Source of the DNA: a virus
Strand: one strand, 5' to 3'
Virus record (IMG/VR): IMGVR_UViG_3300005534_000013
Location: 1 to 64,000 of that record
Length of the DNA stretch: 64,000 nucleotides
In this document: in pieces, positions 24,878-44,391 of the stretch
Numbering within the stretch: position 1 is the stretch's first letter
How the letters are laid out: the number at the start of each line of letters is the position of its first letter
Position numbers and translations under genes: made by a program
The notes under the pieces: generated by a model
What the model saw: the letters and a program-made list of their open reading frames with translations, nothing else
Databases searched by the model: none
What the model was told of the DNA's origin: nothing

Positions 24878-25849
24878 ATGACTGCGCCGCGTCAGAGCGT
24901 CGTTAACACCCAGCCGGGCATCGGCGTCGAGGGCGACTTCGCCTCCGCGAACCCGCGCTTCACCGCCGACTTCGGCCCCGGGGGCGCCGTGGCGGGCGTC
25001 GGGGGCGCGCGTATCGGGCGCTTCTGCTGGTCCGCTCCTCCGCAGGACGCAGACGGGACCAATGCCTGGGTGAGCAACATCGGAGGCTCCGGCCCGGTGA
25101 CGGGCTTCATCGGCCGCGAGCAGCAAGCGCTCATCACCGAGTACCTCCAGGACGCCGGGATGGTGATCCCGCAGGGCTTCGAGACCACGGTCTACATGGG
25201 CGGGGACTTCTTCGTCGTGAACGCCGGCACGGGCCCCGCGACCCCTGGGCTCAAGGCCTACGCGAACTTCGCCGACGGCTCCGTGACCTTCGCCGCCACC
25301 GGGACGGTGACCGCCGGGGGCACCTCCACGGCCTCGACGATCGCGGCCCAGACGTTCTCGACCACCGGCTCGATCCTCAACGACGTCCTCACGGTCACGG
25401 CCGTGGGCTCGGGCACGATCCAACCGGGGTCTGTCATCTCCGGCACGTCGATCATCACCGGCACCACCGTCGCGTCCCAGATCACTCCGCTGCTGGCCGG
25501 CGAGGCGCTGGGCGGGATCGGGCGCTACCTGCTCTCGACCCCGCAGCCCCAGATCGCCTCCGAGACGATCACGGGCACCTGGGGCCTCCTCACTGTCGGG
25601 GGCACCGTGGTCGCGGGCTACGCGATCGGCGGCGTCCTCACGGGCGCGACCGGGACGATCACCGCCAACGCGACGAACGGCGTCAGCCTCACGGGCACGG
25701 GAGGCGCCGGGACCTACGCGACCCAGACCCAGACGGTGGGCTCCGGTGCGATCAACGTCTCGGCCGTGAACGTCGAGACCAAGTGGTTCGCCCGCTCCTA
25801 TGCCGCGCCCGGTGCGCTGGTGAAAATCAGCAACCATCCGCTCGGCTAA
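24878..25849 (+). CDS. structural cement (Gp24-like) protein with inserted beta modules
   Basis: 323 residues. Core: TQPGIGVEGDFASANPRFT, GGARIGRFCWS, GFIGREQQALITEYLQDAGM and GDFFVVNAGT, matching the capsid cement/decoration family coded just before major capsid genes. Residues about 160-293 hold two copies of the module repeated in other virion proteins, placed before the last core strand (NVETKWFARSYAAPGALVKI). This would put the modules on the outer capsid surface. Confidence 0.8.
   Translation: MTAPRQSVVNTQPGIGVEGDFASANPRFTADFGPGGAVAGVGGARIGRFCWSAPPQDADGTNAWVSNIGGSGPVTGFIGREQQALITEYLQDAGMVIPQGFETTVYMGGDFFVVNAGTGPATPGLKAYANFADGSVTFAATGTVTAGGTSTASTIAAQTFSTTGSILNDVLTVTAVGSGTIQPGSVISGTSIITGTTVASQITPLLAGEALGGIGRYLLSTPQPQIASETITGTWGLLTVGGTVVAGYAIGGVLTGATGTITANATNGVSLTGTGGAGTYATQTQTVGSGAINVSAVNVETKWFARSYAAPGALVKISNHPLG
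25355..25756 (+). repeat. Two GTY modules in the cement protein
   Basis: Module 1 (residues 160-232) reads VLTVTAVGSGTIQPGSVISG then GGIGRYLLSTPQPQIASETI. Module 2 (residues 236-293) reads LTVGGTVVAGYAIGGVLTG then GAGTYATQTQTVGSGAI. Both share the order of motifs seen in the modules at 29537, 31887, 32085 and 40072. Confidence 0.7.
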
Positions 25850-25890
25850 GGCCCCCGCCCCTCCAGCTCTAGAAGAAGGCACCTGCCATC

Positions 25891-27036
25891 ATGTCGAAGA
25901 AGAACAAGAGGGGCGGCTCCCTGCGGTCCCTTTCCCCGGCCCAGGCCCGGACGCGGTTCGCCGAGGACCGGTCGTTCTACGAGGCGCGCGGGGTCATCTT
26001 CCCGGCCGCGAGCTCGTATCTCCCGGAGGCGTATCGGAACGACTACGGGCTCGCGATGGACGCCTATCCCGGCGCCCCGCAGGCGCTGATCCAGACCGAT
26101 CCCAACTCCGCGGTGCCCGCGCTCCTGACCACGTACATCGACCCCGACGTCTACGAGGTCCTCTTCGCGCCCAACGCCGCAGCGGAAATCTTCGGCGAGG
26201 TCCGGAAGGGCGACTGGCTGATGGACACGGCCCTCTTCCCGATCGCCGAGCACGCGGGCGAGGTGTCGAGCTACGGTGACCGCTCGAACAACGGCCGCGC
26301 GACCGCGAACACCAACTGGGCGAACTACCAGAGCTACCTCTGGCAGACGATCATGGAGTACGGGGAGCGGGAGCTGGAGCGGGCCGGCCTCGCGCGGCTC
26401 AACTGGGTCTCGGAGCTGAACAAGTCGGCGGCGACGCTGATGGATAAGTTCCACAACCTCACCTACTTCTTCGGCGTCACGGGCCTGCAGAACTACGGCC
26501 TGCTCAACGACCCCCTGCTCGCGGCCCCGCTCACGCCGGCGACCAAGGCGGCGGGCGGCGTCACCTGGTTCACCAGCGGGGGTGCGCCGAACGCGACCGC
26601 GAACGAGGTCTACAACGACATCGTGGCGATCTTCCAAGCGCTCGTGACCGCGAACGCGGGCAACGTCGACCGCAAGACCAAGATGACCCTGGGCGTGAGC
26701 CCGCAGTCGTCCGTCGCGCTCACGTTCACGAACAGCTTCAACGTCAACGTCGAAGACCTGCTGAAGAAGAATTTCCCCGACCTCGAGGTCAAGACCGCCG
26801 TCCAGTACGGGGCCCAGACGGCCTCGAATCCGCAGGGCAACGCGGCCGGGAACCTGGTCCAGCTGCTCGCCGAGTCGGTGCAGGGCCAGGACGTGGGCTT
26901 CTGCGCCTTCAACGAGAAGATGCGGGCGCACAAGATCATCTTCGACCTGTCGAGCTATCGGCAGAAGGTGACCGGGGGGTCCTGGGGAGCGGTCATCCGC
27001 TACCCAGTCGGCATCTCGTCCATGGTGGGGGTCTAA
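25891..27036 (+). CDS. major capsid protein (DUF2184 type)
   Basis: 381 residues, a normal length. Motifs include PALLTTYIDPDVYEVLFAPN, GDWLMDTALFPIAEHAGEVS, NYQSYLWQTIMEYGERELER and a C-terminal KIIFDLSSYRQKVTGGSWGA, as in the DUF2184 capsid family of HK97 fold. It follows protease, scaffold and cement genes. RBS AGAAGG upstream; a hairpin follows the stop. Confidence 0.88.
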   Translation: MSKKNKRGGSLRSLSPAQARTRFAEDRSFYEARGVIFPAASSYLPEAYRNDYGLAMDAYPGAPQALIQTDPNSAVPALLTTYIDPDVYEVLFAPNAAAEIFGEVRKGDWLMDTALFPIAEHAGEVSSYGDRSNNGRATANTNWANYQSYLWQTIMEYGERELERAGLARLNWVSELNKSAATLMDKFHNLTYFFGVTGLQNYGLLNDPLLAAPLTPATKAAGGVTWFTSGGAPNATANEVYNDIVAIFQALVTANAGNVDRKTKMTLGVSPQSSVALTFTNSFNVNVEDLLKKNFPDLEVKTAVQYGAQTASNPQGNAAGNLVQLLAESVQGQDVGFCAFNEKMRAHKIIFDLSSYRQKVTGGSWGAVIRYPVGISSMVGV

Positions 27037-27057
27037 CCCGCCGCTTGATGCTGAAAT

Positions 27058-27087
27058 CCCGGCCTCCTTCCCTCATTGGGGGCCGGG
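27058..27087 (+). terminator. Hairpin downstream of the capsid gene
   Basis: CCCGGCC (27058-27064) pairs with GGCCGGG (27081-27087), with an inner CCC/GGG step. There is no T-run beyond a short CATTG, so it may be a partial terminator or mRNA-stabilising structure that sets the high capsid level. Confidence 0.5.
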
Positions 27088-27116
27088 CATTGAGCACCAA
27101 GACCAGGAGAAGTCCC

Positions 27117-27635
27117 GTGGCCGAAGCCACCGAAACCCAAGCCCCCGCGACCCGCCAGGTGATCCAGCGCGCCTCCGCAAAGCCGCAGAGCGCCGGCGAC
27201 AAGGTGACGGTCTACTGCAAGATGCCGAATGGCCTGCGCCTGCGGGTCTTCCGCATGGTCGAGCAGCGCGAGCCGGTGCTCGGCGGCGGGACCCGGGAGT
27301 TCCACATGGCCGAGCCCGAGGGTCCGGAGGTCGTCGTCTGGGGCAACCGCTTCCGCCTCGGCGACCCCATGACCCATCGGATCATCGGCGACTACGGGCT
27401 CACGGAGGGCGTGGACAAGGACTTCTGGGACGCGTGGCTGGAGGCCAACAAGGAGCAGCCCTACGTGGTCAACGGCCTGATCTTCGCGGCCGGGAAGCGG
27501 GAATATGGGGAGGCGGAGGCCGAGGATCGGCGCGACACCTGGTCGGGCCTCGGGCCCCTGCTCAAGGACGACGATCCCCGCGCGCCCCGCGCGAGCGCCA
27601 ATCTGACCGGCGTGAAGGACTACGAGTCTGCCTGA
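27117..27635 (+). CDS. hypothetical head protein, 172 aa
   Basis: GTG start at 27117 with AGGAGA eight bases upstream; upstream in-frame starts lie in the hairpin region and are rejected. Contains DKVTVYCKMPNGLRLRVFRM and VDKDFWDAWLEANKEQPYVV. It resembles small proteins between capsid and DUF4054 genes in related myoviruses, possibly a capsid accessory. Confidence 0.65.
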   Translation: MAEATETQAPATRQVIQRASAKPQSAGDKVTVYCKMPNGLRLRVFRMVEQREPVLGGGTREFHMAEPEGPEVVVWGNRFRLGDPMTHRIIGDYGLTEGVDKDFWDAWLEANKEQPYVVNGLIFAAGKREYGEAEAEDRRDTWSGLGPLLKDDDPRAPRASANLTGVKDYESA

Positions 27636-28108
27636 TGGGCGTCCAGGTCACGTTCTCCTATGAGGCGTGGGCCGCCCAATATCCCTCGCTGGCGCCGTAC
27701 ATCGATGAGATCAAGGCCACGGCGTGCTTCAACATGGCGACGCTCTACCAGGCCAACGATGGGTCTGGGCCGATCAACGACCCTGTTCTCGCGCTCCAGC
27801 TCCTCAACCTCCTGAGCGCGCATGTCGCGGTCCTGACCTATCCCACCACCGGCCCGACCGCGACGCCCGATCCGGCCTCGCCCCTGGTCGGCCGGGTCTC
27901 GAACGCCGCCGAGGGATCGGTCAACGTCACGGCGCAGAACGACTACCCGCCCGGGACGCCGCAGTGGTATCAGCAGACGGTCTGGGGCTCGGCCTGGTGG
28001 GCGGCGACCAGCCAGTTCAGGACGATGCGCTATCTGCCGCCGAGGCGGCGCACGGGTCCCTGGGGGCCCTTCGGTTTTCTCGGCCCGAACTTGCTCGGTC
28101 GAGGTTGA
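27635..28108 (+). CDS. DUF4054 head-tail connector
   Basis: 157 residues: FSYEAWAAQYPSLAPYIDEI, PVLALQLLNLLSAHVAVLTY, GRVSNAAEGSVNVTAQNDYP and WYQQTVWGSAWWAATSQFRT. This is the usual motif order of DUF4054, an adaptor placed after the capsid gene. TGATG overlap with the previous gene. Basic Pro/Gly-rich tail. Confidence 0.82.
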   Translation: MGVQVTFSYEAWAAQYPSLAPYIDEIKATACFNMATLYQANDGSGPINDPVLALQLLNLLSAHVAVLTYPTTGPTATPDPASPLVGRVSNAAEGSVNVTAQNDYPPGTPQWYQQTVWGSAWWAATSQFRTMRYLPPRRRTGPWGPFGFLGPNLLGRG

Positions 28109-28126
28109 ACTTCAGAGGAGGCCCCG

Positions 28127-28807
28127 ATGGGCAAAACGACCGTCTTCACCCCGCTGGGCGACATCCCGCTCCCGATCGGCCCCGCGTCGTTCGACCCCAC
28201 TGTGGGCTCGATCCTCACCAAAACGACCTTGATCGCGCCCCTGCCGGCCGACCTCGTGAGCGTCGTCGGCGCCGTGACGCCGAGCAACGTCGCCCTCACG
28301 ATCGCCGCGCAGCCGCCTCATTCGCGCAAGCTTCAGATTCGGGTCGTCGTCGGGACCACGACCACGACCGCGATCACCGCCGGGAACCTCGCGCTCGTGG
28401 GGTTTGACCAGGATGGCAACGCGATCTCGGAGAACATCAGCCTCGTCGCGAACGCGAGCAAGACGGTGGTCTCGGCCCACGCCTTCTCGTCCCTCACCTC
28501 CGCGACCGTCTCGGCCTACGCCGCGAACGGCAGCGGCACCGGGAACACGGTCGGGATCGGGGGGAGCAACGACTTCGGGATCCCGACGGCCAGGGGGACG
28601 ATCTCGAATTTCGCGCTCGTGAAGGCCATCAAGATCATCACGACCTGGACCCCCGGCACGCCCGCGTGGTCCCGGGCGCCGACGGATGACAACGCCGCCG
28701 GGGCTGCGGTCGACCCCGTGGCGAGGACCGTGAATCCCACCACGGCGCCTGGCGTCGCGGGGATCAACGACTACGAGCTCACGGTCTCGTACAACCTCGC
28801 GGCCTAG
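28127..28807 (+). CDS. hypothetical structural protein, 226 aa
   Basis: Beta-rich and Thr/Ser/Ala-rich (IRVVVGTTTTTAITAGNLAL, SENISLVANASKTVVSAHAF). RBS AGAGGAGG just upstream. Its location between connector genes suggests a virion component, perhaps head or neck decoration. No family recognised. Confidence 0.6.
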   Translation: MGKTTVFTPLGDIPLPIGPASFDPTVGSILTKTTLIAPLPADLVSVVGAVTPSNVALTIAAQPPHSRKLQIRVVVGTTTTTAITAGNLALVGFDQDGNAISENISLVANASKTVVSAHAFSSLTSATVSAYAANGSGTGNTVGIGGSNDFGIPTARGTISNFALVKAIKIITTWTPGTPAWSRAPTDDNAAGAAVDPVARTVNPTTAPGVAGINDYELTVSYNLAA

Positions 28808-28813
28808 AACCCG

Positions 28814-29263
28814 ATGGCCGCCATGGAGATCAGGGGCGGCGACGAGCTCGCGCGCCGGCTCGCCGAGATGGCCTCGAAGCTCTCGACCGCCGCGGAGCTC
28901 CGCGTGGGCTTCCTCGAGGGTGCGACGTACCCCGATGGGACCCCGGTCGCGCTCGTCGCGGCCGCGCACAACTGGGGGGCGCCGTCGGTCGGGCTCCCGC
29001 CCCGGCCGTTCTTCTCCCGGATGGTGGACCAGAACGAATCGGGCTGGCCCGACCTGATCGCCGAGGGGCTGAAGCGCTCCAGCGGTGACGCCAAGGGGGC
29101 GCTGGAGTTCGCCGGCCGGATCATGGTCGAGCAGCTCCAGGGGAGCATCCTCGCCGGCGGATTCGCGCCCCTGAAGCCTGAGACGATCCGTCGCAAGGGG
29201 TTTTCGACAGAGCTTATAGATACCGCCCACATGCTCAACTCGATCGCCTCGGAGGTGCTCTGA
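28814..29263 (+). CDS. tail-completion/neck protein (HK97 gp10-like)
   Basis: 149 residues: ELRVGFLEGATYPDGTPVAL, AAAHNWGAPSVGLPPRPFFS and KPETIRRKGFSTELIDTAHM. The conserved sequence around PPRPFFS and the final helix fit neck or tail-completion proteins of the gp10 type. It overlaps the next small gene by one base. Confidence 0.7.
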   Translation: MAAMEIRGGDELARRLAEMASKLSTAAELRVGFLEGATYPDGTPVALVAAAHNWGAPSVGLPPRPFFSRMVDQNESGWPDLIAEGLKRSSGDAKGALEFAGRIMVEQLQGSILAGGFAPLKPETIRRKGFSTELIDTAHMLNSIASEVL

Positions 29264-29418
29264 TGGGCTACACCCCCGTTTGCGCGACCGGTCGCAGGCG
29301 TCAGCGGCGGAAGTGGTTCGGTCTATGGGGTCCGATGATCTGGGAGCGTGAGGTCCAGCAGTGCATCGGCGGCAGCTACAGTTCCCCGGTCTACGCCCGC
29401 TGGTGGGAGAGGGTCTGA
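29263..29418 (+). CDS. small basic protein, 51 aa
   Basis: Reads MGYTPVCATGRRRQRRKWFG and ends SSPVYARWWERV. TGATG overlap with the previous stop and one base before the next GTG support translation. Cys and Trp rich; role unknown. Confidence 0.5.
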   Translation: MGYTPVCATGRRRQRRKWFGLWGPMIWEREVQQCIGGSYSSPVYARWWERV

Positions 29419-29419
29419 G

Positions 29420-30055
29420 GTGGCGCTCCGGAACCTCCACGCGATCGCGAACCGCTACATCGCCGGCGCCGTGAGCCCCAACTTCCTCGGCAACTGGCTC
29501 TCCAGCCAGGGGTACGCGCAGATCGGCGATGCGGCGTTCACGGGCGCGATCGCGGGCACGACCCTCACGGTGTCGGCGGTCGCGAGCGGTGCGCTCGCGG
29601 TGGGCTCGCTCCTGACGGATCAGACCAGCGCCCTCGAGTCCGCGACGGTCATCGAGGCCCTGGGGAGTGGGACCGGGGGCGTGGGAACCTATGTGGTCGC
29701 GCCGGCCCAGACCGTGGGGTCCGAGCCCATGGCGGCGAACGGCCCGGGGAAGCGCCAGCAGACCTACCGGACGTTCGCCGATCGCCCGATGCAGGTCCAG
29801 GCGCTCTCGGCCGAGGATTTCGGGCTGGTCGACCGCCTCAACATAGCCGAGACCGTGCGCGGGGTCTGGATGAATGGCCAGGTTCAAGGAGTCCAACGCC
29901 CAGATATTCGCGGCGGCGATATTCTGCAAATTCCCACGGGACTGAGTGGGAACGCATACGATACTTGGTTGGTGAAGGCCGTATTAGAAGGCTGGGACGC
30001 GGATGGCTGGTGTCATGTCGCAGTTGTGTTGCAAATGCCGACGCAAAGCCAATGA
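29420..30055 (+). CDS. DUF-type tail/neck protein with inserted beta module, 211 aa
   Basis: GTG start at 29420. The outer parts read IANRYIAGAVSPNFLGNWLS and TFADRPMQVQALSAEDFGLV, like a conserved connector. Residues 40-105 are one copy of the repeated module. From about 29870 the DNA is clearly less GC-rich than before, and this lasts into the HNH gene that overlaps the stop (ATGA), as if the 3' end had been replaced together with the HNH insertion. Confidence 0.7.
   Translation: MALRNLHAIANRYIAGAVSPNFLGNWLSSQGYAQIGDAAFTGAIAGTTLTVSAVASGALAVGSLLTDQTSALESATVIEALGSGTGGVGTYVVAPAQTVGSEPMAANGPGKRQQTYRTFADRPMQVQALSAEDFGLVDRLNIAETVRGVWMNGQVQGVQRPDIRGGDILQIPTGLSGNAYDTWLVKAVLEGWDADGWCHVAVVLQMPTQSQ
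29537..29734 (+). repeat. GTY module in the neck protein
   Basis: Residues 40-105: TGAIAGTTLTVSAVASGALA, VGSLLTDQ, then LGSGTGGVGTYVVAPAQTVG and SEPM. Same motif order as in the cement, sheath and baseplate J modules. Confidence 0.8.
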
Positions 30056-30636
30056 AGACCTGCACCAAATGTAAGACCTCTCGCCACTTGTCCGACTTTC
30101 GCAAGGACCGGAAGCGCAAGGACGGCCTTCAGTGCTGGTGCGACTTCTGTCTGAGCGCCTATCGGATTCAAACGCAGGGCCGACACCGGCTCTACTGCGC
30201 TGAATATTACGCCGCCCATGGCGAGGAGATGCGGGAGAGCAATAAGCGGAGGCGACGATCCGACCCGGCCCGGGCGCGCGCGTTGGATGCTCCAAGGAAC
30301 GAGAAGCGCAAAGAGCAGCGCGCCCAGGCCCGCAAGGTCCGAGCCGAGATGATGAAGGCCAGGTCCAAGGCTCAGCGGGTTGCGAAGTGCCGTCTCCGCG
30401 CCGCGCGGAAAAAGAGGGCGATCCCGGCCTGGGCTGATCAGGCGGAGATCTTGCGCCATTACGAGGCCGCGCAGCGCCTGACGGCCGAGACCGGCATCCC
30501 GCATCACGTGGATCACGTCGTGCCGCTATCCTCGCCTCTCGTGTGCGGGCTGCATTGGCATAGGAACCTCGCGGTCGTCCCTAAGTGGGCAAACCTGATG
30601 AAGGGCAATCGTCACTGGCCGGACATGCCGCAATGA
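30052..30636 (+). CDS. HNH endonuclease inserted in the neck/tail genes
   Basis: 194 residues. N-terminal zinc-type segment CTKCK and CWCDFC, a long basic helical linker, then HHVDHVVPLSSPLVCGLHWH with the catalytic His and NLAVVPKWANLMKGNRHW. This layout is common in free-standing phage HNH nucleases, many of which are homing enzymes. Lower GC than its surroundings supports recent arrival. ATGA overlaps both neighbours. Confidence 0.8.
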   Translation: MKTCTKCKTSRHLSDFRKDRKRKDGLQCWCDFCLSAYRIQTQGRHRLYCAEYYAAHGEEMRESNKRRRRSDPARARALDAPRNEKRKEQRAQARKVRAEMMKARSKAQRVAKCRLRAARKKRAIPAWADQAEILRHYEAAQRLTAETGIPHHVDHVVPLSSPLVCGLHWHRNLAVVPKWANLMKGNRHWPDMPQ

Positions 30637-30818
30637 ACGATTCCGCACCCTTTTCGCACCCAAATCGAGTCGGGACGCCGGCGGAACTCTGCTGGGCCTG
30701 CGATGGCGCGGGGACGGTGGCGGATCGCCAGTGGCCCTCGGGCCGCGACATCTGCCCGACCTGCTTCGGGCGTCGGGTGATCGCCCAGGCGCCGGCGCGC
30801 CAGCAGGAGGCGGCCTGA
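30633..30818 (+). CDS. small zinc-finger protein, 61 aa
   Basis: CWACDGAGTV and CPTCFGRR give two Cys pairs about 20 residues apart, a compact zinc-binding unit. ATGA overlap with HNH, TGATG with the neck gene. Function unknown. Confidence 0.55.
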   Translation: MNDSAPFSHPNRVGTPAELCWACDGAGTVADRQWPSGRDICPTCFGRRVIAQAPARQQEAA

Positions 30819-31363
30819 TGCCCCTGCCCTCCGGGCCCACCCCTGCCCCGACGCGCGAGCAGCTCCTCACGCTGCTCCGGGGCTTCCTCGTCACCGTGCT
30901 CCCGACCGGGGTCGAGGTCGTGATCGGTCAGGCGAACCGCGTTCCCGAACCCAGCGGGCCCGATTACGTGGTCCTGACGTCCGTGGGGCTCCGGCGCCTC
31001 GCGACGACGGTCGACACCTGGGACATGGGCGATCCCGCGCCCTCGACGCTTGAGCACGAGCAGGACGTCGCGATCCGGGTTCAGATGGACGTCCACGGCC
31101 CGAACTCGACCGACAACGTGAACATCATCACGACGCTGCTCCGCTCGGACTATGGGGTCGAGTTCTTCGGCAACAGCGGAATGTCGCCCTTGACCTGCGA
31201 TGATGGTAATCAGATCCCCTTCACTTCGGGGGAGAGGCAGTTCGAGGATCGCTGGGTGGTCGAGGCCCTGTTCCAGATGAACGTGGTAGTGGCGACGACT
31301 CAGCAGTTTGCCGATAGGCTCAATCCCGAGCTCGTGAACGTCGACACCCTCTATCCACCTTGA
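30818..31363 (+). CDS. neck/tail terminator protein (gp12-like, LIC_12616 family look)
   Basis: 181 residues: REQLLTLLRGFLVTVLPTGV, YVVLTSVGLRRLATTVDTWD, QDVAIRVQMDVHGPNSTDNV and DRWVVEALFQMNVVVATTQQ. The pattern fits neck terminators coded immediately before the sheath in this class of myovirus. It should cap the tail tube and join it to the head. Confidence 0.72.
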   Translation: MPLPSGPTPAPTREQLLTLLRGFLVTVLPTGVEVVIGQANRVPEPSGPDYVVLTSVGLRRLATTVDTWDMGDPAPSTLEHEQDVAIRVQMDVHGPNSTDNVNIITTLLRSDYGVEFFGNSGMSPLTCDDGNQIPFTSGERQFEDRWVVEALFQMNVVVATTQQFADRLNPELVNVDTLYPP

Positions 31364-31373
31364 GGACGCCTAG

Positions 31374-33296
31374 ATGACCCTCGCAATCCCGGCCTCGCAG
31401 ATCGTCGCCGTCAACCCGGGCGTCGTCGGCGCCGGCGGCTCGGCGCTCGATCTCAACGGGCTGATGCTCACGACCTCGACCCGGGTCCCGGTCGGGACCG
31501 TGCTCTCGTTCCCGACCCAGCTCTCGGTCGCGGCGTTCTTTGGCGCCAACTCGACCGAGGCCGCGCTGGCGCTGATCTACTTCAACGGCTTCGATAACTC
31601 GGCCGTGAAGCCGGGCGCGCTCCTCTTCGCCCAGTACCCCTGGGCGGCGCCGGTCGCGCCCTATGTCCGGGGTGGGAACATCGCCGCCGCCCTGTCGCTC
31701 GCGCAGCTCCAGGCCCTGGCGCCTGGCACGCTCACGGTCGTGCTCAACGGCCTCTCGCATGTCTCGGGCACGATCAACCTCTCGGGCGCGACCAGCTTCT
31801 CCAACGCCGCGTCGCTGATCCAGACCGCCCTCGGGGCCAACGACGCGACCTTCACGGGCTCGATCGCGGCCAGCACCGCGAGCGTCACGGGCTCGATCGC
31901 GGGCAATGTCCTCACGGTGACCAACGTCTCGTCCGGCGTCCTCGTGGTGGGCGGGATCCTGTCCGGGACCGGGGTGACGGCCGGCACGCAGATTCAGGCG
32001 CAGCTCGGCGGCACGACCGGCGGGATCGGGACCTACCAGGTCTCCGCCTCTCAGACCGTGAGCTCGACCACGATCTCCGAGACCTATGGGACCCTCACCG
32101 TCTCCGCGATCTCGGCCGGCGCGGTGGCGCTGGGCCAGGTGCTCGCCGGCGCCGGGATCACGGCCAACACGAGCGTGACCGCGCTCGGGACCGGGACCGG
32201 GGGCACGGGCACGTACATCGTGAGCCCGACCCAAACGGTCGGCTCCGAGGCGATGACCTCGGGCGCCGCGCTCGTGACCTTCGACTCGGTCTCCGGGGCC
32301 TTCATCATCACCGGGGGAACCCCGGGCCTCGTGGGGACGATCGCGTTCCCCAGCGGCGCGATGGCGACCTCGCTCCTCCTCACCCAGGCGACGGGGGCCG
32401 TGCTCTCCCAGGGGGCGGCGCTCGCGACCCCGGCGGCGTTTATGAACGCGATCGTGGCCCAGACCCAGAACTGGGCGACGTTCTTCACCACGTTCGACCC
32501 CGTGGCGGCGGACAAGGTGGCGTTCGCGACCTGGGTGAACGGCCAGCAGACCCAGTACCTCTATTCCGAGTGGGCCCAGGACGTCGCGAACACCCTCCCG
32601 AACCCCAACACCGGCACGTCGCAGATCATCGCCGGGGGCTTCTCGGGCACGGCGCCGATCTACGGTCCCCTCCAGGGCGCCTCGAACGCGGCGCTGCTCG
32701 CGGGCTTCGTCGCCTCGATCGACTTCCAGCAGACGAACGGCCGGACCACGATGGCGTTCCAGTCGCAGAGCGGCTTCAGCCCCGAGGTCACCAACGCGAC
32801 GATCGCCTCCCAGCTGATCGCCAACGGGCTGAACTTCTACGGCTCCTACTCGACCGCGAACGACAACTTCAATTTCGTCTACCCGGGCTCGGTCACCGGC
32901 CCGTTCAAGTGGCTCGACAGCTACGTGAACGCGATCTGGCTCAAGAACCAGCTCCAGCTCGCGCTGATGACGCTGCTCACGAGCGTGCCCTCGATCCCCT
33001 ACAACAGCGCGGGATACGACCTAATCGAGGCCGCGTGCGCGGACCCGATCAACGCGGCGGTGAACTTCGGCGCCATTCGGGCCGGGGTCCCGCTCTCGGC
33101 CCTCCAGGTCGCGGAGGTGAACAACGCCGCCGGGGCGCAGATTTCCGACGTCCTGCAGAACCGCGGCTGGTACCTCCAGGTCTTGCCCGCGACCGCCCAG
33201 GTGAGGGTGGCGCGGCAATCGCCGCCCATCACCCTCTGGTACATGGACGGGCAATCGGTGCAGCAGATCACCCTCCAGTCGCTCGAGGTCCAATAG
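31374..33296 (+). CDS. tail sheath protein (DUF3383) with two inserted beta modules
   Basis: 640 residues, longer than family members of about 480-520. Core at both ends: PTQLSVAAFFGANSTEAALA, GFDNSAVKPGALLFAQYPWA, ALVTFDSVSGAFIITGG and SQLIANGLNFYGSYSTANDN. Residues about 172-296 are two repeated modules placed between IQTALGAND and ALVTFDSVSGAF. The sheath contracts to drive the tube through the host envelope; inserted modules would face outward. Followed directly by the tube gene. Confidence 0.87.
   Translation: MTLAIPASQIVAVNPGVVGAGGSALDLNGLMLTTSTRVPVGTVLSFPTQLSVAAFFGANSTEAALALIYFNGFDNSAVKPGALLFAQYPWAAPVAPYVRGGNIAAALSLAQLQALAPGTLTVVLNGLSHVSGTINLSGATSFSNAASLIQTALGANDATFTGSIAASTASVTGSIAGNVLTVTNVSSGVLVVGGILSGTGVTAGTQIQAQLGGTTGGIGTYQVSASQTVSSTTISETYGTLTVSAISAGAVALGQVLAGAGITANTSVTALGTGTGGTGTYIVSPTQTVGSEAMTSGAALVTFDSVSGAFIITGGTPGLVGTIAFPSGAMATSLLLTQATGAVLSQGAALATPAAFMNAIVAQTQNWATFFTTFDPVAADKVAFATWVNGQQTQYLYSEWAQDVANTLPNPNTGTSQIIAGGFSGTAPIYGPLQGASNAALLAGFVASIDFQQTNGRTTMAFQSQSGFSPEVTNATIASQLIANGLNFYGSYSTANDNFNFVYPGSVTGPFKWLDSYVNAIWLKNQLQLALMTLLTSVPSIPYNSAGYDLIEAACADPINAAVNFGAIRAGVPLSALQVAEVNNAAGAQISDVLQNRGWYLQVLPATAQVRVARQSPPITLWYMDGQSVQQITLQSLEVQ
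31887..32261 (+). repeat. Two GTY modules in the tail sheath
   Basis: Module 1 (residues 172-235): TGSIAGNVLTVTNVSSGVLV, GTGVTAGTQI, GTTGGIGTYQVSASQTVSST. Module 2 (238-296): [57 protein letters not shown]. Tandem copies in one protein show duplication or serial insertion. Confidence 0.85.
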
Positions 33297-33731
33297 ATGC
33301 CCCGCACGCTGACGGCGGCCGACGCCGTAATCATCCTCAACGCGCCGGACGTCTTCTCGGCCCCGCAGCAGCTCCAGGGCTTCGCGACCGACGACGTCTT
33401 CTCCGTCAACTCGCTCGACATCGCCGAGACGATGATGGGGGTCGACGGCAAGCTCAGCGGCGGCTACGTCCCCGTGCCGATCGACCAGACCTTCATGCTC
33501 CAGGCCGACAGCGACTCGATCGACTTCTTCGAGGCGATCTATGCCGCCGCGGTCCAGCAGCGGACGATCTTCTACCTCAGCGGCCGCACGGTGCTCCGGA
33601 GCACTGAGAAGCGCTACGTGATGACCCGGGGGCTGATGGTCGGCTACACTCCGATGCCGAACGCCAAGAAGGTCCTGCAGCCGCGTCCGTTCATCATCCG
33701 CTGGGAAAGCGTCTCGCCCAGCCCCGTCTAG
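33297..33731 (+). CDS. tail tube protein (DUF3277-like)
   Basis: 144 residues, beginning at the base after the sheath stop. Reads TLTAADAVIILNAPDVFSAP, DVFSVNSLDIAETMMGVDGK and TFMLQADSDSIDFFEAIYAA, the usual tube pattern for DUF3383-sheath phages. Forms the inner tube for DNA passage. Confidence 0.8.
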   Translation: MPRTLTAADAVIILNAPDVFSAPQQLQGFATDDVFSVNSLDIAETMMGVDGKLSGGYVPVPIDQTFMLQADSDSIDFFEAIYAAAVQQRTIFYLSGRTVLRSTEKRYVMTRGLMVGYTPMPNAKKVLQPRPFIIRWESVSPSPV

Positions 33732-33739
33732 GAGGGCCG

Positions 33740-34219
33740 ATGGGCCGCCGCACCACCGTCGTGACGATCACCGCCGAGGGCCGGGACAAGGGGCGGGAGT
33801 ACCTGGTCACCGAGATGCCGGCCTCGAAGGCCGAGCGCTGGGCCGCGCGCGCCCTCACCGCCGTCGGGAAGTCCGGCGCCCAGATCCCCGAGGACGTCGC
33901 GAACCTCGGGATGGCGGGCCTCTCGAGCATCGGGGTCCGGGCGATCCTCGGCGTGCAGTTCTCCGAGGCCGAGCCCCTGATGGACGAGATGATGGGGTGT
34001 GTGCAGAGGAAGATGGACTCTGGCGTCGTCCGTGATCTGATCGAGGACGACATCGAGGAAGTGGCGACGCGCGTGCAGTTGCGCGGGGAGGTGCTGGCCC
34101 TCCACATGGGTTTTTCGCTGGCCGACGCTCTGTCGAGACTCCGCTCGCTTGGGCCGTCGGCGGAGGAACCGGCGGAGATTTCATCGGCTACCCCAACCTC
34201 CCCGCAACCATCGGAATAG
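33740..34219 (+). CDS. tail assembly chaperone, unshifted form
   Basis: 159 residues: TITAEGRDKGREYLVTEMPA, SKAERWAARALTAVGKSGAQ and a helical core. Position between tube and tape measure is that of lambda G-type chaperones. The zero frame ends at 34219 with a Ser/Pro/Glu-rich tail. A slippery heptamer at 34108-34114 allows a -1 shift to a longer form. Confidence 0.8.
   Translation: MGRRTTVVTITAEGRDKGREYLVTEMPASKAERWAARALTAVGKSGAQIPEDVANLGMAGLSSIGVRAILGVQFSEAEPLMDEMMGCVQRKMDSGVVRDLIEDDIEEVATRVQLRGEVLALHMGFSLADALSRLRSLGPSAEEPAEISSATPTSPQPSE
34108..34114 (+). promoter_or_regulatory. -1 ribosomal frameshift site GGGTTTT
   Basis: In the zero frame the codons are ATG GGT TTT TCG, so G-GGT-TTT is a canonical X-XXY-YYZ slippery heptamer. 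Slipping back one base moves into a frame that stays open for 80 codons and lacks a start codon in its first 60 or so, then ends exactly at the overlapped tape-measure GTG. Confidence 0.8.
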
Positions 34220-34356
34220 TCGTCAGCGCGCGGCTCGCGACCCTGCACGAGCTTGATACGGTCTATGGCGTCGAAGACCTCCACGATATGCTCGAGATTG
34301 CGGCGGTCGAGGCGGTGAATCGCCGGATCGCGGAGGCAGGGGAGGGCGAGCCGTGA
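34114..34356 (+). CDS. tail assembly chaperone, -1 frameshift extension (GT-type)
   Basis: After the shift the protein continues FAGRRSVETPLAWAVGGGTG and DFIGYPNLPATIGIVVSARL, ending with ELDTVYGVEDLHDMLEIAAV. The full fusion (33740-34114 joined to 34114-34356) is 205 residues. The extension should bind tail tube or tape measure, as GT does in lambda. The stop overlaps the tape-measure start (GTGA). Confidence 0.78.
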   Translation, partial: FAGRRSVETPLAWAVGGGTGGDFIGYPNLPATIGIVVSARLATLHELDTVYGVEDLHDMLEIAAVEAVNRRIAEAGEGEP

Positions 34357-36047
34357 ACGTGATCGACGCCTTCTTCGTGACGGTCGGCCTCGATCCCTCG
34401 GGGATGCGGAAGGGCACGACCGAGGTCGCGTCCATGCAGAAGGGGATGCGCGAGGACGCGATCCGGACCCGCAAGGAGATGGAGGCCTCGGCGAAGCGGA
34501 TCGGGGAGGGCTTCGACCGTCTGGCGAAGGGCGCGATCGCCCTGGGTCTCGCGCTCCTGGGCGCGCGGTCGATCGAACAGTTCATCCGCGCGACGATCGA
34601 TCTCGACGCCTCGACGGGCCGGCTCGCCAAGACCCTCGGGATGTCGACCGAGGAAGTTTCGGCCTGGGAGGGGGCGATCCGCCAGATGGGCGGGTCGAAC
34701 CAGGACGCGATCGGATCCCTCCAGTCGCTCGTCACGGCGTTCGAGCAAATTCAGCTCACCGGCCAGTCGCCCCTGATCCCCTACCTGCAGCTGCTCGGCG
34801 TGACGCTCGCGGACCTCAAGAACCCGACCGAGACGCTGCTCCACCTCGCGGACCGCTTCAGCGCCATGGACCCCCGCCAGGCCTTCGCGCTCGGGACCGG
34901 GATGGGCCTCTCGCCGGCGATGATTAACCTCTTGATAAAGGGCCGGGCCGCGACACTCGACTACCTCGAGGCGGCGCGGAAGGCCTACTCGATCCACCAG
35001 GCGGACGCCGAGGCGGCCCAGCAGGCGCAGAGGTCGCTCTCCCTGCTCGGCGACACCTATAGCCGGCTCGGGAACAATCTCCTCAACACGGTCCTCCCCT
35101 ATGCGATCCGCTTCACCGACTGGCTGACCCGGGTCGCTCAGCAGAGCACCCCGACGGGCGTCGCGGTCGACCACCTCGCGACGGCGTTCAAGAACCTCTT
35201 CGATGCGGTGAACGACCTGGCGGGCGGGAACCTGATCGGCGGGACCCTGAAGCTGATCGGCGACACGACCTCGTACATGATCGAGGCCCTGGCCCACATC
35301 ATCAACTCGATGGCCGACGTCTTGAGGGGGGACCTCGGGGGCGCGGGGAGAGAACTCGCGGCCGCCGCGGTGGCGTTCGGAAACGAGATGCGGAGCTTCT
35401 ACCACGACGCCGGGTTCAAGGGCTGGACCGATCCCCGGACCTCGCCGAACCAGGTATTCTCGGCGCCCGGTGCGCCAGCGGCCGCCGGCGCCGGTGGCCC
35501 AGGCGCCCCCGACACCTTCAGGGGCCATGCGACGACCGCGCGCGGAGGGGCCATCGGCGGCCTGATCGAGTCGTTCTTTCGTCTCCATGGCTTCTCGGCC
35601 GCCAGCGCCCGGGGGATCGCGGCCGGGGTGGCGGCCGAGGGCGGGGGCGCGGGGTCAAAGAACCCGTTCTCGAGCGCGTTTGGGATCGGGCAGTGGCTGA
35701 CAAGTCGCCAGAAGGACTTCGCCCGCATCTTCGGCCACGACATCCATGGCTCTAGCCTAGACGAGCAGCTCCGGTTCATGCTCTGGGAGCTGACCCACAG
35801 CGAGCGGAGTAAGGGCGAGCGGATCCGCGGCGCGGGCTCGGCCGAGGCCGCGATGGTGACCTACCTCCGCGACTTCATGCGCCCGGGCGCCGGCCTGGCG
35901 GGCGACCTCAAGCGCGGGGCCAAGTATCTCGGGGCGACGATCCACATCGACCAGCTTACGGTCAACACCAAGGCGACGGACGCCAAGGGGATCGCGCGCG
36001 ACATCCACGCCGAGCTCGCGACCCAGGCGAACCGGGGGCTCTTCTGA
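34353..36047 (+). CDS. tape measure protein with tail lysozyme domain
   Basis: 564 residues, GTG start in a GTGA overlap. N-terminal coiled-coil and hydrophobic helix (AKGAIALGLALLGARSIEQF), then KTLGMSTEEVSAWEGAIRQM, typical of tape measures. Residues about 405-515 (ARGIAAGVAAEGGGAGS, FGIGQWLTSRQKDFARI) fit a phage tail lysozyme domain that would locally cut peptidoglycan during DNA entry. Its modest length implies a short tail of about 80-90 nm by the usual 0.15 nm per residue rule. Confidence 0.85.
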   Translation: MNVIDAFFVTVGLDPSGMRKGTTEVASMQKGMREDAIRTRKEMEASAKRIGEGFDRLAKGAIALGLALLGARSIEQFIRATIDLDASTGRLAKTLGMSTEEVSAWEGAIRQMGGSNQDAIGSLQSLVTAFEQIQLTGQSPLIPYLQLLGVTLADLKNPTETLLHLADRFSAMDPRQAFALGTGMGLSPAMINLLIKGRAATLDYLEAARKAYSIHQADAEAAQQAQRSLSLLGDTYSRLGNNLLNTVLPYAIRFTDWLTRVAQQSTPTGVAVDHLATAFKNLFDAVNDLAGGNLIGGTLKLIGDTTSYMIEALAHIINSMADVLRGDLGGAGRELAAAAVAFGNEMRSFYHDAGFKGWTDPRTSPNQVFSAPGAPAAAGAGGPGAPDTFRGHATTARGGAIGGLIESFFRLHGFSAASARGIAAGVAAEGGGAGSKNPFSSAFGIGQWLTSRQKDFARIFGHDIHGSSLDEQLRFMLWELTHSERSKGERIRGAGSAEAAMVTYLRDFMRPGAGLAGDLKRGAKYLGATIHIDQLTVNTKATDAKGIARDIHAELATQANRGLF

Positions 36048-36724
36048 TGCCGATGTATCCCCAGGTCCCGGTCGCGCCCGGCGTCCCGCCGGTGTTCCGC
36101 AACTCGACGAACAACAGCCTTGGATCCCCCACGCCGCTCACCAGCGACGGGCCCAATGTCGCGTCGCCGCCCGACGCCGCGCCCCAGTGGGGCATCTTCG
36201 ACTCCGGGGGCTCGGCGGTGATCGAGCCCGATTCCGTGATCTCGGCCGAGCGGATGCGCGAGTTCCGGGTCTCGGACTTCCCGATCGAGGCCGGGGGCTT
36301 CGCCTCCTACAACAAGGTCGCGACGCCGTTCAGGGGCGAGTTCCGGATGGTCAAGGGCGGGCAGGAGGGCGACCGGACCGCCTTCCTCAAGAAGCTCGAC
36401 GCCCTGGTGGAGTCGCTCGATCTCTTGACGATGGTGACGCCGGAAATCTCCTACGACAACGTGAACGTCACCCACTACGAGTATCGGCGCACGAGCGAGA
36501 ACGGGGTCCAGCTGATCGCGGCCGACATCCGGGTGGAGGAGATCAGGCAGGCGGCGTCCGCGGCCTTCTCCAACACCCAGGACCCCAGCTCCCAGGACGC
36601 GCAGAGCAACGGCGCCGTCCAACCCGTGACGCCCGACACGGCCCAGACCTCGGCCGCGCAGAGCGATCTCACGACCTCCCCGGGCGTCAATGACGCGGCG
36701 CTGGCGCCGGAGCCGCCCATCTGA
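36047..36724 (+). CDS. tail hub/baseplate protein, 225 aa
   Basis: Contains SDFPIEAGGFASYNKVATPF, GGQEGDRTAFLKKLDALVES and PEISYDNVNVTHYEYRRTSE, as in baseplate proteins coded just after tape measures in this phage class. The C-terminal 60 residues are Gln/Ser/Pro-rich and disordered. TGATG-type overlaps on both sides. Confidence 0.7.
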   Translation: MPMYPQVPVAPGVPPVFRNSTNNSLGSPTPLTSDGPNVASPPDAAPQWGIFDSGGSAVIEPDSVISAERMREFRVSDFPIEAGGFASYNKVATPFRGEFRMVKGGQEGDRTAFLKKLDALVESLDLLTMVTPEISYDNVNVTHYEYRRTSENGVQLIAADIRVEEIRQAASAAFSNTQDPSSQDAQSNGAVQPVTPDTAQTSAAQSDLTTSPGVNDAALAPEPPI

Positions 36725-37050
36725 TGCTGATCGTTCCCCTCCAGGCCGTGCCGTCGCAGACGCTCAACATCGTGCTCGCCAACCAGGCGTGCACGATCGA
36801 CGTGCTCCTGAAGTCCACCGGCCTCTTCGTCGACCTCTCGGTCAACTCCGCGCTCATCATCGGGGGCGTGGTGGCGCTGAACGCGGTCCGGATCGTCCGG
36901 GACAGCTACCTGAGCTTCATCGGCGACCTGATCTTCGTCGACATCCAGCCGGACCCCGTGACCGGGCCCGCCGATCCCCTCTACACCGGTCTCGGGAGCC
37001 GCTGGCTGCTCTTCTACCTCGACGCCGGCGAGCTGAGCGGCGACGTCTGA
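36724..37050 (+). CDS. baseplate plug-like protein (DUF6983 look), 108 aa
   Basis: Beta-rich: VPSQTLNIVLANQACTIDVL, FVDLSVNSALIIGGVVALNA, SYLSFIGDLIFVDIQPDPVT. The small all-beta sequence and location between two hub genes fit the plug family. It closes or connects the central tube at the baseplate. Confidence 0.7.
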   Translation: MLIVPLQAVPSQTLNIVLANQACTIDVLLKSTGLFVDLSVNSALIIGGVVALNAVRIVRDSYLSFIGDLIFVDIQPDPVTGPADPLYTGLGSRWLLFYLDAGELSGDV

Positions 37051-37937
37051 TGGCCTACGCGAAGCGCAAGATCGACCTGGAGTTCCGCCTCGGGAAGGGC
37101 TCGTTCGGCGGCAGCGGCTTCAACACCGTGAAGGCGACGGGGCTCAGGGTCACGGCCGCGATCGAGAAGGCGGGCGCGATCGGGATGCACACGCTCAATG
37201 CCCGCGTCTATGGCCTCGATCAGTCGATCGCCAACTCGATCTCGACCCTCGGGAAGGTCCTGACGGCGGGGCGGAACAATCTCGTCAGTGTCTCGGCCGG
37301 CGACGATCAGTCCGGGATGTCCGTCGTCTTCCTCGGGACGATCGACACCGCGTGGTCGGACTACACCGGCGCCCCCGACGCCGCGGTGGTGATCCGGGCC
37401 CACACGGGGCTCTTCGACGCCCTCCGGCCCCTCCCGGCGGTGAGCTTCCAGGGCTCGGCCGACGTCGCGACGATCATGTCCGGGATCGCGCAGCAGATGG
37501 GCTACACGTTCGAGAACAGCGGGGTGAGCGTCCAGCTCTCCAACCCCTACTTTCCCGGCACGGGGCGCGACCAGGCCTACGCGGCCGCGCGCGCCGCCGA
37601 CATCAACATCGCGATGGACGACCAGCCGGGCGGTACCCTCACGCTCGCGATCTGGCCCAAGGACGGGGCGCGGGGCGGGGTCGCGCCGCTGGTCTCGCCC
37701 GACACCGGGATGGTCAACTACCCGACCTGGGTCGAGAACGGGGTCATCGTGAAGACGCTCTACAATCCGAGTCTCATGGCCGGGGGCAAGGTGAACATCA
37801 AATCCGCGATCCCGAACGCCAATGGGACGTGGCAGATTTTCAATCTCCGCCACGACCTCGAGAGCGAGATCCCGGAAGGCGAGTGGTTCACGACTGCGAG
37901 CTGCAACGTCCTGGGGCATCAGCAACTTGCCACCTGA
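37050..37937 (+). CDS. baseplate hub protein, 295 aa
   Basis: Reads KRKIDLEFRLGKGSFGGSGF, AIEKAGAIGMHTLNARVYGL and VGFD-like beta segments, then VSFQGSADVATIMSGIAQQM, a pattern of hub proteins related to gpD/gp27 folds. It precedes the spike and should hold it. TGATG start overlap. Confidence 0.72.
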   Translation: MAYAKRKIDLEFRLGKGSFGGSGFNTVKATGLRVTAAIEKAGAIGMHTLNARVYGLDQSIANSISTLGKVLTAGRNNLVSVSAGDDQSGMSVVFLGTIDTAWSDYTGAPDAAVVIRAHTGLFDALRPLPAVSFQGSADVATIMSGIAQQMGYTFENSGVSVQLSNPYFPGTGRDQAYAAARAADINIAMDDQPGGTLTLAIWPKDGARGGVAPLVSPDTGMVNYPTWVENGVIVKTLYNPSLMAGGKVNIKSAIPNANGTWQIFNLRHDLESEIPEGEWFTTASCNVLGHQQLAT

Positions 37938-38565
37938 GAGCCAGGACTACATCGGCGCCATGGCGCCGGCCGATGGGGGCTCGGCCTTCAACGCGATGTC
38001 GTTCATCGCCCGCCAGGTGCTGGGCCAGGTCTGGAGCGCGACGATCGTCAAGGTCACGGCCGTCCATGGGGGCGGGCTCTCGACCCCGCCGACGGTCGAC
38101 GTCCAGCCTCTCGTGAATCAGATCGACGGCCAGGGAAACTCGACCCCCCATGGGACGATCTTCGGTCTCCCCTGTTGCCGCCTGCAGGGCGGGCTGAGCT
38201 CGGTAGTCCTGGACCCCGTGGTGGGCGACCTCGGCCTGGCGGTCTTCGCCGACCACGACATCTCCAGCGTGGTGAAGAACAGCGCGCAGGCGAACCCGGG
38301 CTCGAGGCGTCGCTTCGACCCCGCCGATGGCCTCTATGTCTGCACGCTCCTGGGCCAAGCGCCCACGACCTACGTGCAGTTCGGCGCCAGCGGGGCGATC
38401 AACATCGTCGGGGTCGGGACCGTGACCGTCCAGGCGCCCCACGTGACCGTGACCTCGAACGATGTGAACCTCGGGGCCACCGGCGGCGCGGCGGTGGCGC
38501 GGGTGGGCGATTCAGTGTCAGGTGGCGTCATCACGACCGGCTCGTCCAAGGTGAAGAGCGCATGA
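37927..38565 (+). CDS. baseplate spike protein (Gp138-like), 212 aa
   Basis: OB-like N-terminal part (NAMSFIARQVLGQVWSATIV, PTVDVQPLVNQIDGQGN) and C-terminal beta repeats with VTVQAPHVTVTSNDVNLGA, the sequence of a membrane-puncturing spike. Start uncertain: TTG 37927 overlaps the hub stop; ATG 37960 would remove 11 residues. Confidence 0.75.
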   Translation: MPPESQDYIGAMAPADGGSAFNAMSFIARQVLGQVWSATIVKVTAVHGGGLSTPPTVDVQPLVNQIDGQGNSTPHGTIFGLPCCRLQGGLSSVVLDPVVGDLGLAVFADHDISSVVKNSAQANPGSRRRFDPADGLYVCTLLGQAPTTYVQFGASGAINIVGVGTVTVQAPHVTVTSNDVNLGATGGAAVARVGDSVSGGVITTGSSKVKSA

Positions 38566-38912
38566 ACACCCTGCTTCTCGACACCACCGCCTGGGACCTC
38601 ACGAGCGACCTCGACGGCAACATCGCGATGGCGACGAACCCCTATGCGATCGCCCAGGACGTGGCCTCGGCGCTGCGGCTCTTCAAGGGCGAGTGCTTCT
38701 TCGACACCACCCGGGGCGTCCCGTATTTCAACCAGATCCTCGGCCGCGCGCCGCCGCTCGCGTTCCTCAAGGCCAAGTTCGTCACAGCCGCGATGACGGT
38801 CCCCGAGGTGGTGAACGCGATCGCGTTCGTGGCCTCGATCATCGGCCGCAAGGTCACGGGCCAGGTCCAGGTCACGACCTCGGCCGGCGTCACCTTCCCG
38901 GTGGGGTTCTGA
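38562..38912 (+). CDS. baseplate wedge protein (gp25/W-like)
   Basis: 116 residues: [40 protein letters not shown] and [11 protein letters not shown]. These match the gp25-like lysozyme-fold wedge that starts sheath assembly. ATGA overlap with the spike; baseplate J follows, as usual. Confidence 0.83.
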
Positions 38913-38913
38913 G

Positions 38914-40359
38914 ATGCCGACGAACGTCCCGGCCCCGACCTTCGGCCCCACGGGTTTCGTCGTTCCGCCCGATAGCGCGATCCTCGCCGGGGTCTCGGCC
39001 GACATCAATGCGGCGTTCGGGGGCAACCTCAACCTCGCGCCCGAGACACCCCAGGGCCAGCTCGCGGCCAGCTTCACCGCGGTGATCTCGGACTGCTACG
39101 CGAACTTCCTCCTCTACACGCAGCTCGTCGACCCCGCGTTCTCCTCCGGCCGGATGCAGGACGCGATCGCGCGCATCTACTTCCTCACCCGTCTCCCGGC
39201 CCAGGCGACTGCGGTGACTTGCACGTGCGTGGGGCTCCAGAACACCGTCATCCCCACGGGGGCGCTCGCCCAGGCGCAGGACGGGAACATCTACTCGTGC
39301 ACCGGCGGGGGGACGATCCCCGTCGGGGGCTCGATCAGCCTGCAGTTCGCCTGCGTGACCAGCGGGCCGATTCCCTGCCCGGCCAACACCCTGACCTCGA
39401 TCTATCGCGCGATCCCGGGGTGGGACACGATCAACAACCCCAGCGCCGGCGTCGTGGGCTCGAACGTCGAGACCCGGGCGGCCTTCGAGTTGCGCCGCGA
39501 GCAGACCGTCGAGGCAAACTCGGTGACGATGATCGGCTCGATCATCGGCGCGGTCGCGCAGGTCCCGGGCGTCCTCGATTACTACGGGTATGACAACGCC
39601 ACGGCGGCTCCGGTGACGATTCAGGGCCAGACGATCGCCGCGAACTCGATCTACATCTGCGTCGCCGGCGGCGTCGCCCTCGCGGTCGCGCAGGCGATCC
39701 TCTCGAAGAAGGGGCCGGGTTGCGCCTATACGGGCTCGACCACCGTCACGGCGTTCGACTCCAATCCCCTCTTCTCGGCGCCGATCGCCTATTCGGTGAG
39801 CTTCCAGATCCCGACCACGCTCGACATCGTGTTCGCGGTCTCGATCAAGAATTCCTCCGCAGTGCCCTCGAACGCCGTGGCGCTGATCCAGGGCGCGATC
39901 GCGAACACCTTCGCGGGCATCTCGGCCGACCTCGATGACGTCGCGACCCTGAGCACCAAGGCCAGGATCGGCGCGACCCTCTACGCCTCCGACTACATGC
40001 CGAACATCGCGGCCCTGGGGGCGTGGGCCAGGGTGATCTCCATCGGGATCGGGTCGAAGAACACCACCGCGGCGGTCGTCACGGGCTCGATCGCCGCCAC
40101 CACGATGACGGTGACCGCGGTCACGTCCGGCACTCTCGCGGTCGGTCAGCAGGTCAGCGGCACGGGAGTGTCGCCCGGGACCTTCATCACCGCCCTGGGG
40201 ACCGGGACGGGCGGGACCGGGACCTATACGGTGGGGATTTCGCAGACCGTGGGCTCCGAGACCCTGACGGCGGTCGCGCCGAGCCTCACCAACCTCACGG
40301 TCAACATCAACCAGATCCCCTCCTACACGCCGGCGAACACGGTCGTGACCTTTGTCTGA
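38914..40359 (+). CDS. baseplate J-like protein with inserted beta module
   Basis: 481 residues. Core: [57 protein letters not shown] and [20 protein letters not shown], the gpJ/gp6 wedge family. Residues 387-453 are one copy of the repeated module, just before the final strand ([20 protein letters not shown]). It joins wedges to the fibre network. Confidence 0.85.
40072..40272 (+). repeat. GTY module in baseplate J
   Basis: Residues 387-453: [60 protein letters not shown] then SETLT. Very close in motif order to the second sheath module. Confidence 0.85.
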
Positions 40360-44007: not shown

Positions 44008-44391
44008 ATGGCCGATACGCCCGGGCCGCCGAACCCCGAACCCGGCACCGCCTCGCGGACGAGCGTCGCGGCGATCGTGACCTACTGCCTGCTCGGGACC
44101 TGGGCCCTAATGGTCTTCGGCCTCTTCACGCTCGTGTGGTTCCAGGTCGCGATCGACAGCACCCAGATGGCGCTCATCGGCGCGGTGTTCGGGACCGAGC
44201 AGACGCTGCTCGTGGCTGCGGTGACCTTCTGGGTCGGGAGCACCCAGGGGGCGAAGGCGCTTGGGGATGCGATGGCGCAGAGCGCCGCCAAGGCGCAGGG
44301 CGTGGTCGCGGCCGTGGCGGCGTCTAAACCCGGTGTCGTCGCTCCAGAGGCCGAGGTCGATCCTTTCAAGATCAAGGAGCCGGGATCATGA
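44008..44391 (+). CDS. membrane protein, holin-like, 127 aa
   Basis: Two membrane helices (TYCLLGTWALMVFGLFTLVW and ALIGAVFGTEQTLLVAAVTF) followed by an Ala-rich cytoplasmic tail. ATGA overlap with the endolysin links it to lysis. Either this or the 57-residue protein may be the actual holin. Confidence 0.6.
   Translation: MADTPGPPNPEPGTASRTSVAAIVTYCLLGTWALMVFGLFTLVWFQVAIDSTQMALIGAVFGTEQTLLVAAVTFWVGSTQGAKALGDAMAQSAAKAQGVVAAVAASKPGVVAPEAEVDPFKIKEPGS

Follow-up and report, generated by a model that had tools for sequence, protein, structure and literature searches.

Immunoglobulin (Ig)-like domains in the virion proteins of tailed phages were reportedly described by Fraser in 2006, a study cited in PMC10684548. 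In the 936 lactococcal phages, a single virion can display carbohydrate-binding modules on its neck, major tail protein and Dit; they are of several types, two of which bound host cells in assays (PMC6669499). Among phages with contractile tails, E217 has 180 cement positions and 204 sheath subunits (PMC10329688), and residues 91 to 210 of the Pa193 sheath form a flexible domain, separate from the core and from the sheath-knitting arms (PMC11042391). A report on Arthrobacter phage Bridgette describes dimeric capsid cement proteins (PMC13033339).

Here we analyzed 64,000 nucleotides of viral DNA (the window), which cover the greater part of an uncultivated virus record of 66,386 bp. An initial annotation had proposed that one short beta module, possibly a mobile surface domain, is inserted at least six times into four unrelated virion proteins. 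The sheath and wedge proteins of E217, Pa193 and XM1 are homologous to the corresponding host proteins of the window but lack the module.

Results

Six copies of one module interrupt four virion proteins

The plus strand of the window carries an XM1/E217-type contractile-tail cassette, a single cluster of genes for homologues of cement, major head, collar, terminator, sheath and wedge proteins. The host genes, their neighbors and the module copies are as follows.

24878..25849, + strand, cement/minor capsid protein, XM1 gp53-like (Pfam PF23982, E 7e-19; phrog_2122, E 1e-32)
25364..25573, + strand, module copy 1 of the cement protein (55.0 bits, HMM made without the window)
25574..25765, + strand, module copy 2 of the cement protein, divergent (27.2 bits, HMM of 26 second cement copies)
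25891-27036, + strand, major head protein (phrog_264)
29348..30055, + strand, neck/collar protein (phrog_1912, E 2e-21; core on both sides in comparison with empty homologues)
29537..29731, + strand, module of the neck/collar protein (74.0 bits)
30731..31363, + strand, neck/tail terminator, without a module in the window (phrog_1876, PF23961)
31374..33296, + strand, tail sheath, homologue of E217 gp31 and Pa193 gp32 (DUF3383, phrog_205)
31845..32267, + strand, sheath insert that follows core position 152 and comprises two modules with linkers, ~141 aa (hmmalign; phmmer to 9b42_S and 8fvg_A)
31884..32078, + strand, module copy 1 of the sheath (83.5 bits)
32073..32258, + strand, module copy 2 of the sheath (76.5 bits)
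34353-36047, + strand, tape measure
38914..40359, + strand, baseplate J/wedge, homologue of E217 gp44, Pa193 gp45 and XM1 gp16 (PF04865, phrog_6; PDB 8env_J, 9b45_j, 7kh1)
40078..40269, + strand, baseplate J module, within the C-terminal hairpin (92.3 bits)

A six-frame HMM search of the window revealed six module copies in exactly four genes: two in cement, one in neck/collar, two in sheath and one in baseplate J. An HMM of three copies recovered the others, and nothing else convincing was found in any of the six frames. The general HMM, which was built from other genomes only, found five window copies again at 55 to 92 bits; the best of 10,000 composition-preserving shuffles reached 15.4 bits. 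The second cement copy is divergent and scored just 10.5 bits with this HMM, but 27.2 bits when the HMM was made from the second cement copies of 26 relatives (top shuffle 11.0, n = 5,000). All six annotated copies are thus real, and their hosts belong to four unrelated families (phrog_2122/XM1_gp53, phrog_1912, phrog_205/DUF3383 and phrog_6/Baseplate_J).

In each host, the family core resumes past the module and homologues with an empty site exist, so that the module indeed interrupts rather than extends the protein, as originally read. The cement protein has 323 aa with its two modules, which precede the conserved C-terminal tail ETKWxxxSxxxPGxLVKISxxPLG, while empty homologues have 161 to 162 aa. 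The collar core of ~125 aa is split by one module, after which its C-terminal half resumes. The sheath has 640 aa, in comparison to ~494 aa in empty homologues. In baseplate J, the tail INQxPxxxxxNxxVT resumes after the module, and empty homologues run ...LLLGDSTPTAASLTVPINRRPTVSAADIAVTLV over that site.

Several other genes of the window were recorded. A free-standing zinc-finger/HNH-like ORF without a Pfam hit (30052-30636) begins where the module-bearing collar gene has its stop, and relatives of it lie near collar or sheath genes in five other loci (L119, L179, L088, L102 and L120). If it is a homing endonuclease, it could favor local recombination. The head gene region contains a NUDIX domain fused to DUF2213 (22422-23657), and positions 21142-22116 encode a 324-aa protein with degenerate Ala/Leu/Gly repeats (LxGxLxAxAxxxG-like) and without a family match. 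Downstream of the tail fibre genes, an Rv2525c-like glycoside-hydrolase-like protein is encoded (44388-45095).

The module has one confidently predicted fold and no Pfam or NCBIfam name

The module is ~62 to 70 residues long and consists to 60% of Thr (20%), Gly (17%), Ser (11%) and Ala (11%). Only ~3% of its residues are charged, and Trp, His and Cys are almost missing. Most conserved are glycines, core hydrophobic residues, Thr39, Thr53 and Tyr54; no invariant polar patch was seen past Tyr54 and Gln60. Using AlphaFold2 with 89 related sequences, the module alone was predicted to be an all-beta domain (mean pLDDT 97.5), and in a model of the window sheath the modules folded as well. The strong compositional bias raises the question whether Gly/Thr-rich, low-complexity sequences have converged here without homology. 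This is hardly conceivable given the single confident fold, shuffles at about 15 bits or below against 55 to 92 for the copies, and DNA matches of up to 72.6% over 398 bp (E 2e-58).

Among solved structures, the Bridgette capsid entry 8eci gave the best match with its 124-aa chain 1 (Foldseek E 0.011, TMq 0.74, 29% identity). VIA gave a Z of 7.5 with an rmsd of 2.1 over 65 residues at 31% identity, and a Z below 8 may be due to chance. This chain ranked above barrel-like domains of translation factors. It is presumably the dimeric capsid cement protein of Bridgette and resembles the module over nearly its whole length, but it is a stand-alone capsid chain and not an insert. The match of the predicted fold to this chain is suggestive but falls short of being decisive.

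That no existing family could be named for the module holds for Pfam and NCBIfam, neither of which has a family describing it. Two PHROGs (tail fibre) contain it in internal stretches, with profile matches over the module in 89/89 members for phrog_21413 and 88/89 for phrog_38233; both are whole-protein families of fibre-like proteins, in which the module is neither delineated nor named. No Ig-clan Pfam model matched any of the 89 members scanned (E up to 0.1), and the 11 weak hits included no Ig or Big domain. The Foldseek and VIA lists contained barrel-like domains and no Ig fold, although absence from such a list excludes nothing. Furthermore, no carbohydrate-binding module (CBM) family matched in the Pfam and NCBIfam scans, no PDB chain matched by sequence, and literature searches found no published description.

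Empty sites and sister phages identify the module as an insertion

Scans of viral and genome contigs yielded 478 module copies in 309 open frames at 171 loci, including the window. For the sheath, two module peptides were among the scan patterns, which biases upward the share of module-bearing sheaths in viral contigs. An HMM of 42 sheaths without the module served as reference for alignment, and of the 35 module-bearing sheaths, 34 had their insert exactly after core position 152. Insert sizes were stepwise (~72, 141 to 148 and ~210 residues), corresponding to one, two and three modules. In the exception, L170, the insert follows core position 174. A sheath gene with two modules is also present in a prophage of the non-pathogenic Rhizobium lysogen R. 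freirei PRF 81 (L172). At least two insertion sites exist in the collar and three in the wedge, where they lie at core positions ~143 and ~238 and in the C-terminal hairpin.

The common site in 34/35 sheaths might suggest that the segment is an ancestral part of each host family that was lost in many lineages. We regard this as very unlikely, since the module is absent from 42 of 73 sheath relatives and from the 418 phage records with the sheath family, none of which reached 80% coverage of the window sheath. The whole-module size steps, the alternative sites in sheath, wedge and collar, and the presence of the same domain in unrelated families, between whose genes cassettes cross, also contradict it. 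By these alignments, the module is an insertion in its host proteins.

A comparison with sister phages lacking the insert, suggested by the initial annotation, was possible for the sheath. The loci L156/L157 and L132/L133 are collinear over >14 kb at ~85 to 86% DNA identity, and their sheaths align throughout except for one clean, in-frame module of 225 bp, present in L156/L157 only. This is the single module of the whole 48.7-kb L156 record, and the L133 record has none; the clade around these four loci is mostly empty of sheath modules. At this clean site, no terminal repeats or target-site duplication were seen. In the sheath-core tree, module presence needs at least 10 changes, and well-supported branches make six of these unavoidable.

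Cassettes move between genes

Copies in different genes of the same genome had a mean identity of 0.443, as compared to 0.453 between genomes, and no module had its nearest neighbor in its own genome. Since identity within genomes is no higher than between them, a recent burst inside one genome is not indicated. The occurrence of the module in several genes of one genome could be taken for such a burst of a mobile unit, but these identities and the lack of repeats at the clean site make it exceedingly improbable. The idea of one copy spreading through this genome was therefore dropped, since different-gene copies within a genome are 44% alike against 45% between genomes. Judged from these identities, each copy is either old or separately acquired. 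Transposon-like movement was considered and rejected, as no terminal or flanking repeats were seen.

The two sheath modules of the window are closest, in DNA and protein, not to sheath pairs but to cement pairs of other phages (L093, L155 and L195; also L119, L118 and L189); the strongest DNA match mentioned above is to the L093 cement pair. When two-module cassettes were placed in a maximum-likelihood tree, the window sheath cassette nested among cement cassettes (support 92/89), and the sheath cassettes needed six label changes. Their grouping as one clade was rejected (AU p 0.009, somewhat optimistic because we already knew of the similarity when we ran the test). As the nearest relatives of the window sheath pair are thus cement pairs from other phages, we conclude from the sequence relationships that cassettes move between genes. 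Across cement and sheath, copies in the same position of the pair, first or second, resemble each other more than copies in different positions (0.457 and 0.447 vs 0.404), implying that pairs travel or stay conserved as units. The proposed mobility is thus borne out over evolutionary time, by the presence changes, the several sites and the cassettes common to cement and sheath genes. In-frame homologous recombination at the GC-rich modules would be the likely route of transfer.

The sheath modules are placed in a flexible domain

By sequence alignment (phmmer), the two sheath modules of the window map to the stretch from residue 151 to residue 158 in the Pa193 and E217 sheaths, where these have an empty site. 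This position is inside the flexible domain of Pa193 (residues 91 to 210). The AlphaFold2 model of the window sheath matched the Pa193 and E217 sheaths over ~456 residues (Z 35 and 34), and the insert was left over as extra domains with pLDDT values mostly in the 80s and 90s. Based on the insertion site in the host protein and on this model, rather than on coordinates, we infer that the modules face outward on the sheath.

The module occurs in other virion proteins and outside phages

Twelve records with module-bearing structural genes related to those of the window contain 4 to 7 modules each, and in related contigs a 26-ORF cluster of the terminator family also bears modules. Beyond these relatives, modules were found in SU10-type adaptors (63 ORFs) and phrog_578 head closure proteins (57 ORFs), with both at 56 loci. 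Other phages have them in wedge, structural and fibre proteins, too. At L042, L053, L071 and others of the 56, the adaptor and the adjoining head closure protein both carry modules, so that several virion proteins per particle would bear them. A 1755-aa GEVED-domain protein of Bacteroidota (L206, 901-6165) has five tandem modules and is probably a cellular surface protein bearing the domain. The module was also detected in predicted models of giant-virus collagen proteins and of an HK97 capsid protein.

A tblastn search of a phage collection with the window modules gave no match, and masking of low-complexity sequence is the most likely cause. Module variants that are less repetitive matched few records, a number that is no measure of rarity in cultured phages. 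The annotation of one match, MW202520, as portal protein was set aside, because the protein has only 322 aa and adjoins a stabilisation protein. The modules most similar to those of MW202520 come from the cluster matching the SU10 adaptor family.

Discussion

We hold the structural and evolutionary claims on the module with high confidence. The broader reading, that it is an autonomous all-beta accessory domain in virion-protein loops, swapped between genes and acting as an adhesive multivalent coat, appears to us probable, with a considerable margin of doubt. According to this model, phages carry the module in loops of virion proteins and exchange one to three copies at a time through in-frame recombination. 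On head, neck, sheath and baseplate alike, the domains would stick out from the surface, and with E217-like copy numbers there would be hundreds of them per virion. Such a coat could provide weak, reversible contact with cell-surface or environmental polymers ahead of receptor binding. We tentatively favor this function, at slightly under even chances, by analogy with the decorating modules of lactococcal phages that bound host cells. The composition, which is rich in Thr, Gly, Ser and Ala and poor in charge and Trp, does not suggest a classical CBM; together with the scarcity of His and the lack of an invariant polar patch, it gives no pointer to a specific ligand.

The same inert composition and the best solved structural neighbor, a chain from a capsid entry, would also suit a stabilising or steric domain, which makes lateral contacts or thickens the shell or sheath in the manner of a cement protein. 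The coat would then be an inert spacer or stabiliser without host binding. We consider such a role rather unlikely, because copy number and presence vary between close relatives and one host protein can have several alternative sites. Moreover, the modules in tail fibres are hard to reconcile with specific packing, and the structural match itself may be due to chance. A wider generalization is possible, though we would not yet count on it: the unnamed beta-domain family may be a general swappable virion coat, which in unrelated phages moves as cassettes of one to three units among the genes for cement, collar, sheath, wedge, adaptor and fibre proteins (and occurs in a cellular GEVED protein and in giant-virus collagen proteins), and which sets the contact of the particle with its surroundings independently of the receptor-binding proteins.

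With these data, the concept of decorating domains reaches beyond one or two sites and applies to the particle as a whole. Even the contractile sheath is included, a structure that has to move while bearing hundreds of extra domains. The sister pairs with empty sites make function directly testable via a single insert. Once the family, unnamed in Pfam and NCBIfam, is defined, the annotation of many proteins from uncultivated phages could improve.

Among known systems, the phage Ig-like domains resemble the module in being small beta domains that are promiscuous over structural proteins, dispensable in some relatives and swapped between phages; promiscuous occurrence in many virion families, a trait of these domains, was also found for the module. 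Unlike them, the module has no Ig-clan Pfam match, its nearest folds are barrel-like, and it is an in-frame loop insertion, whereas phage Ig-like domains are C-terminal additions. The modules of 936 phages are likewise accessory, located on several proteins of one virion and variable between close relatives. However, while 936 phages use several module types, the window has one family, without a CBM match, in cement, collar, sheath and wedge.
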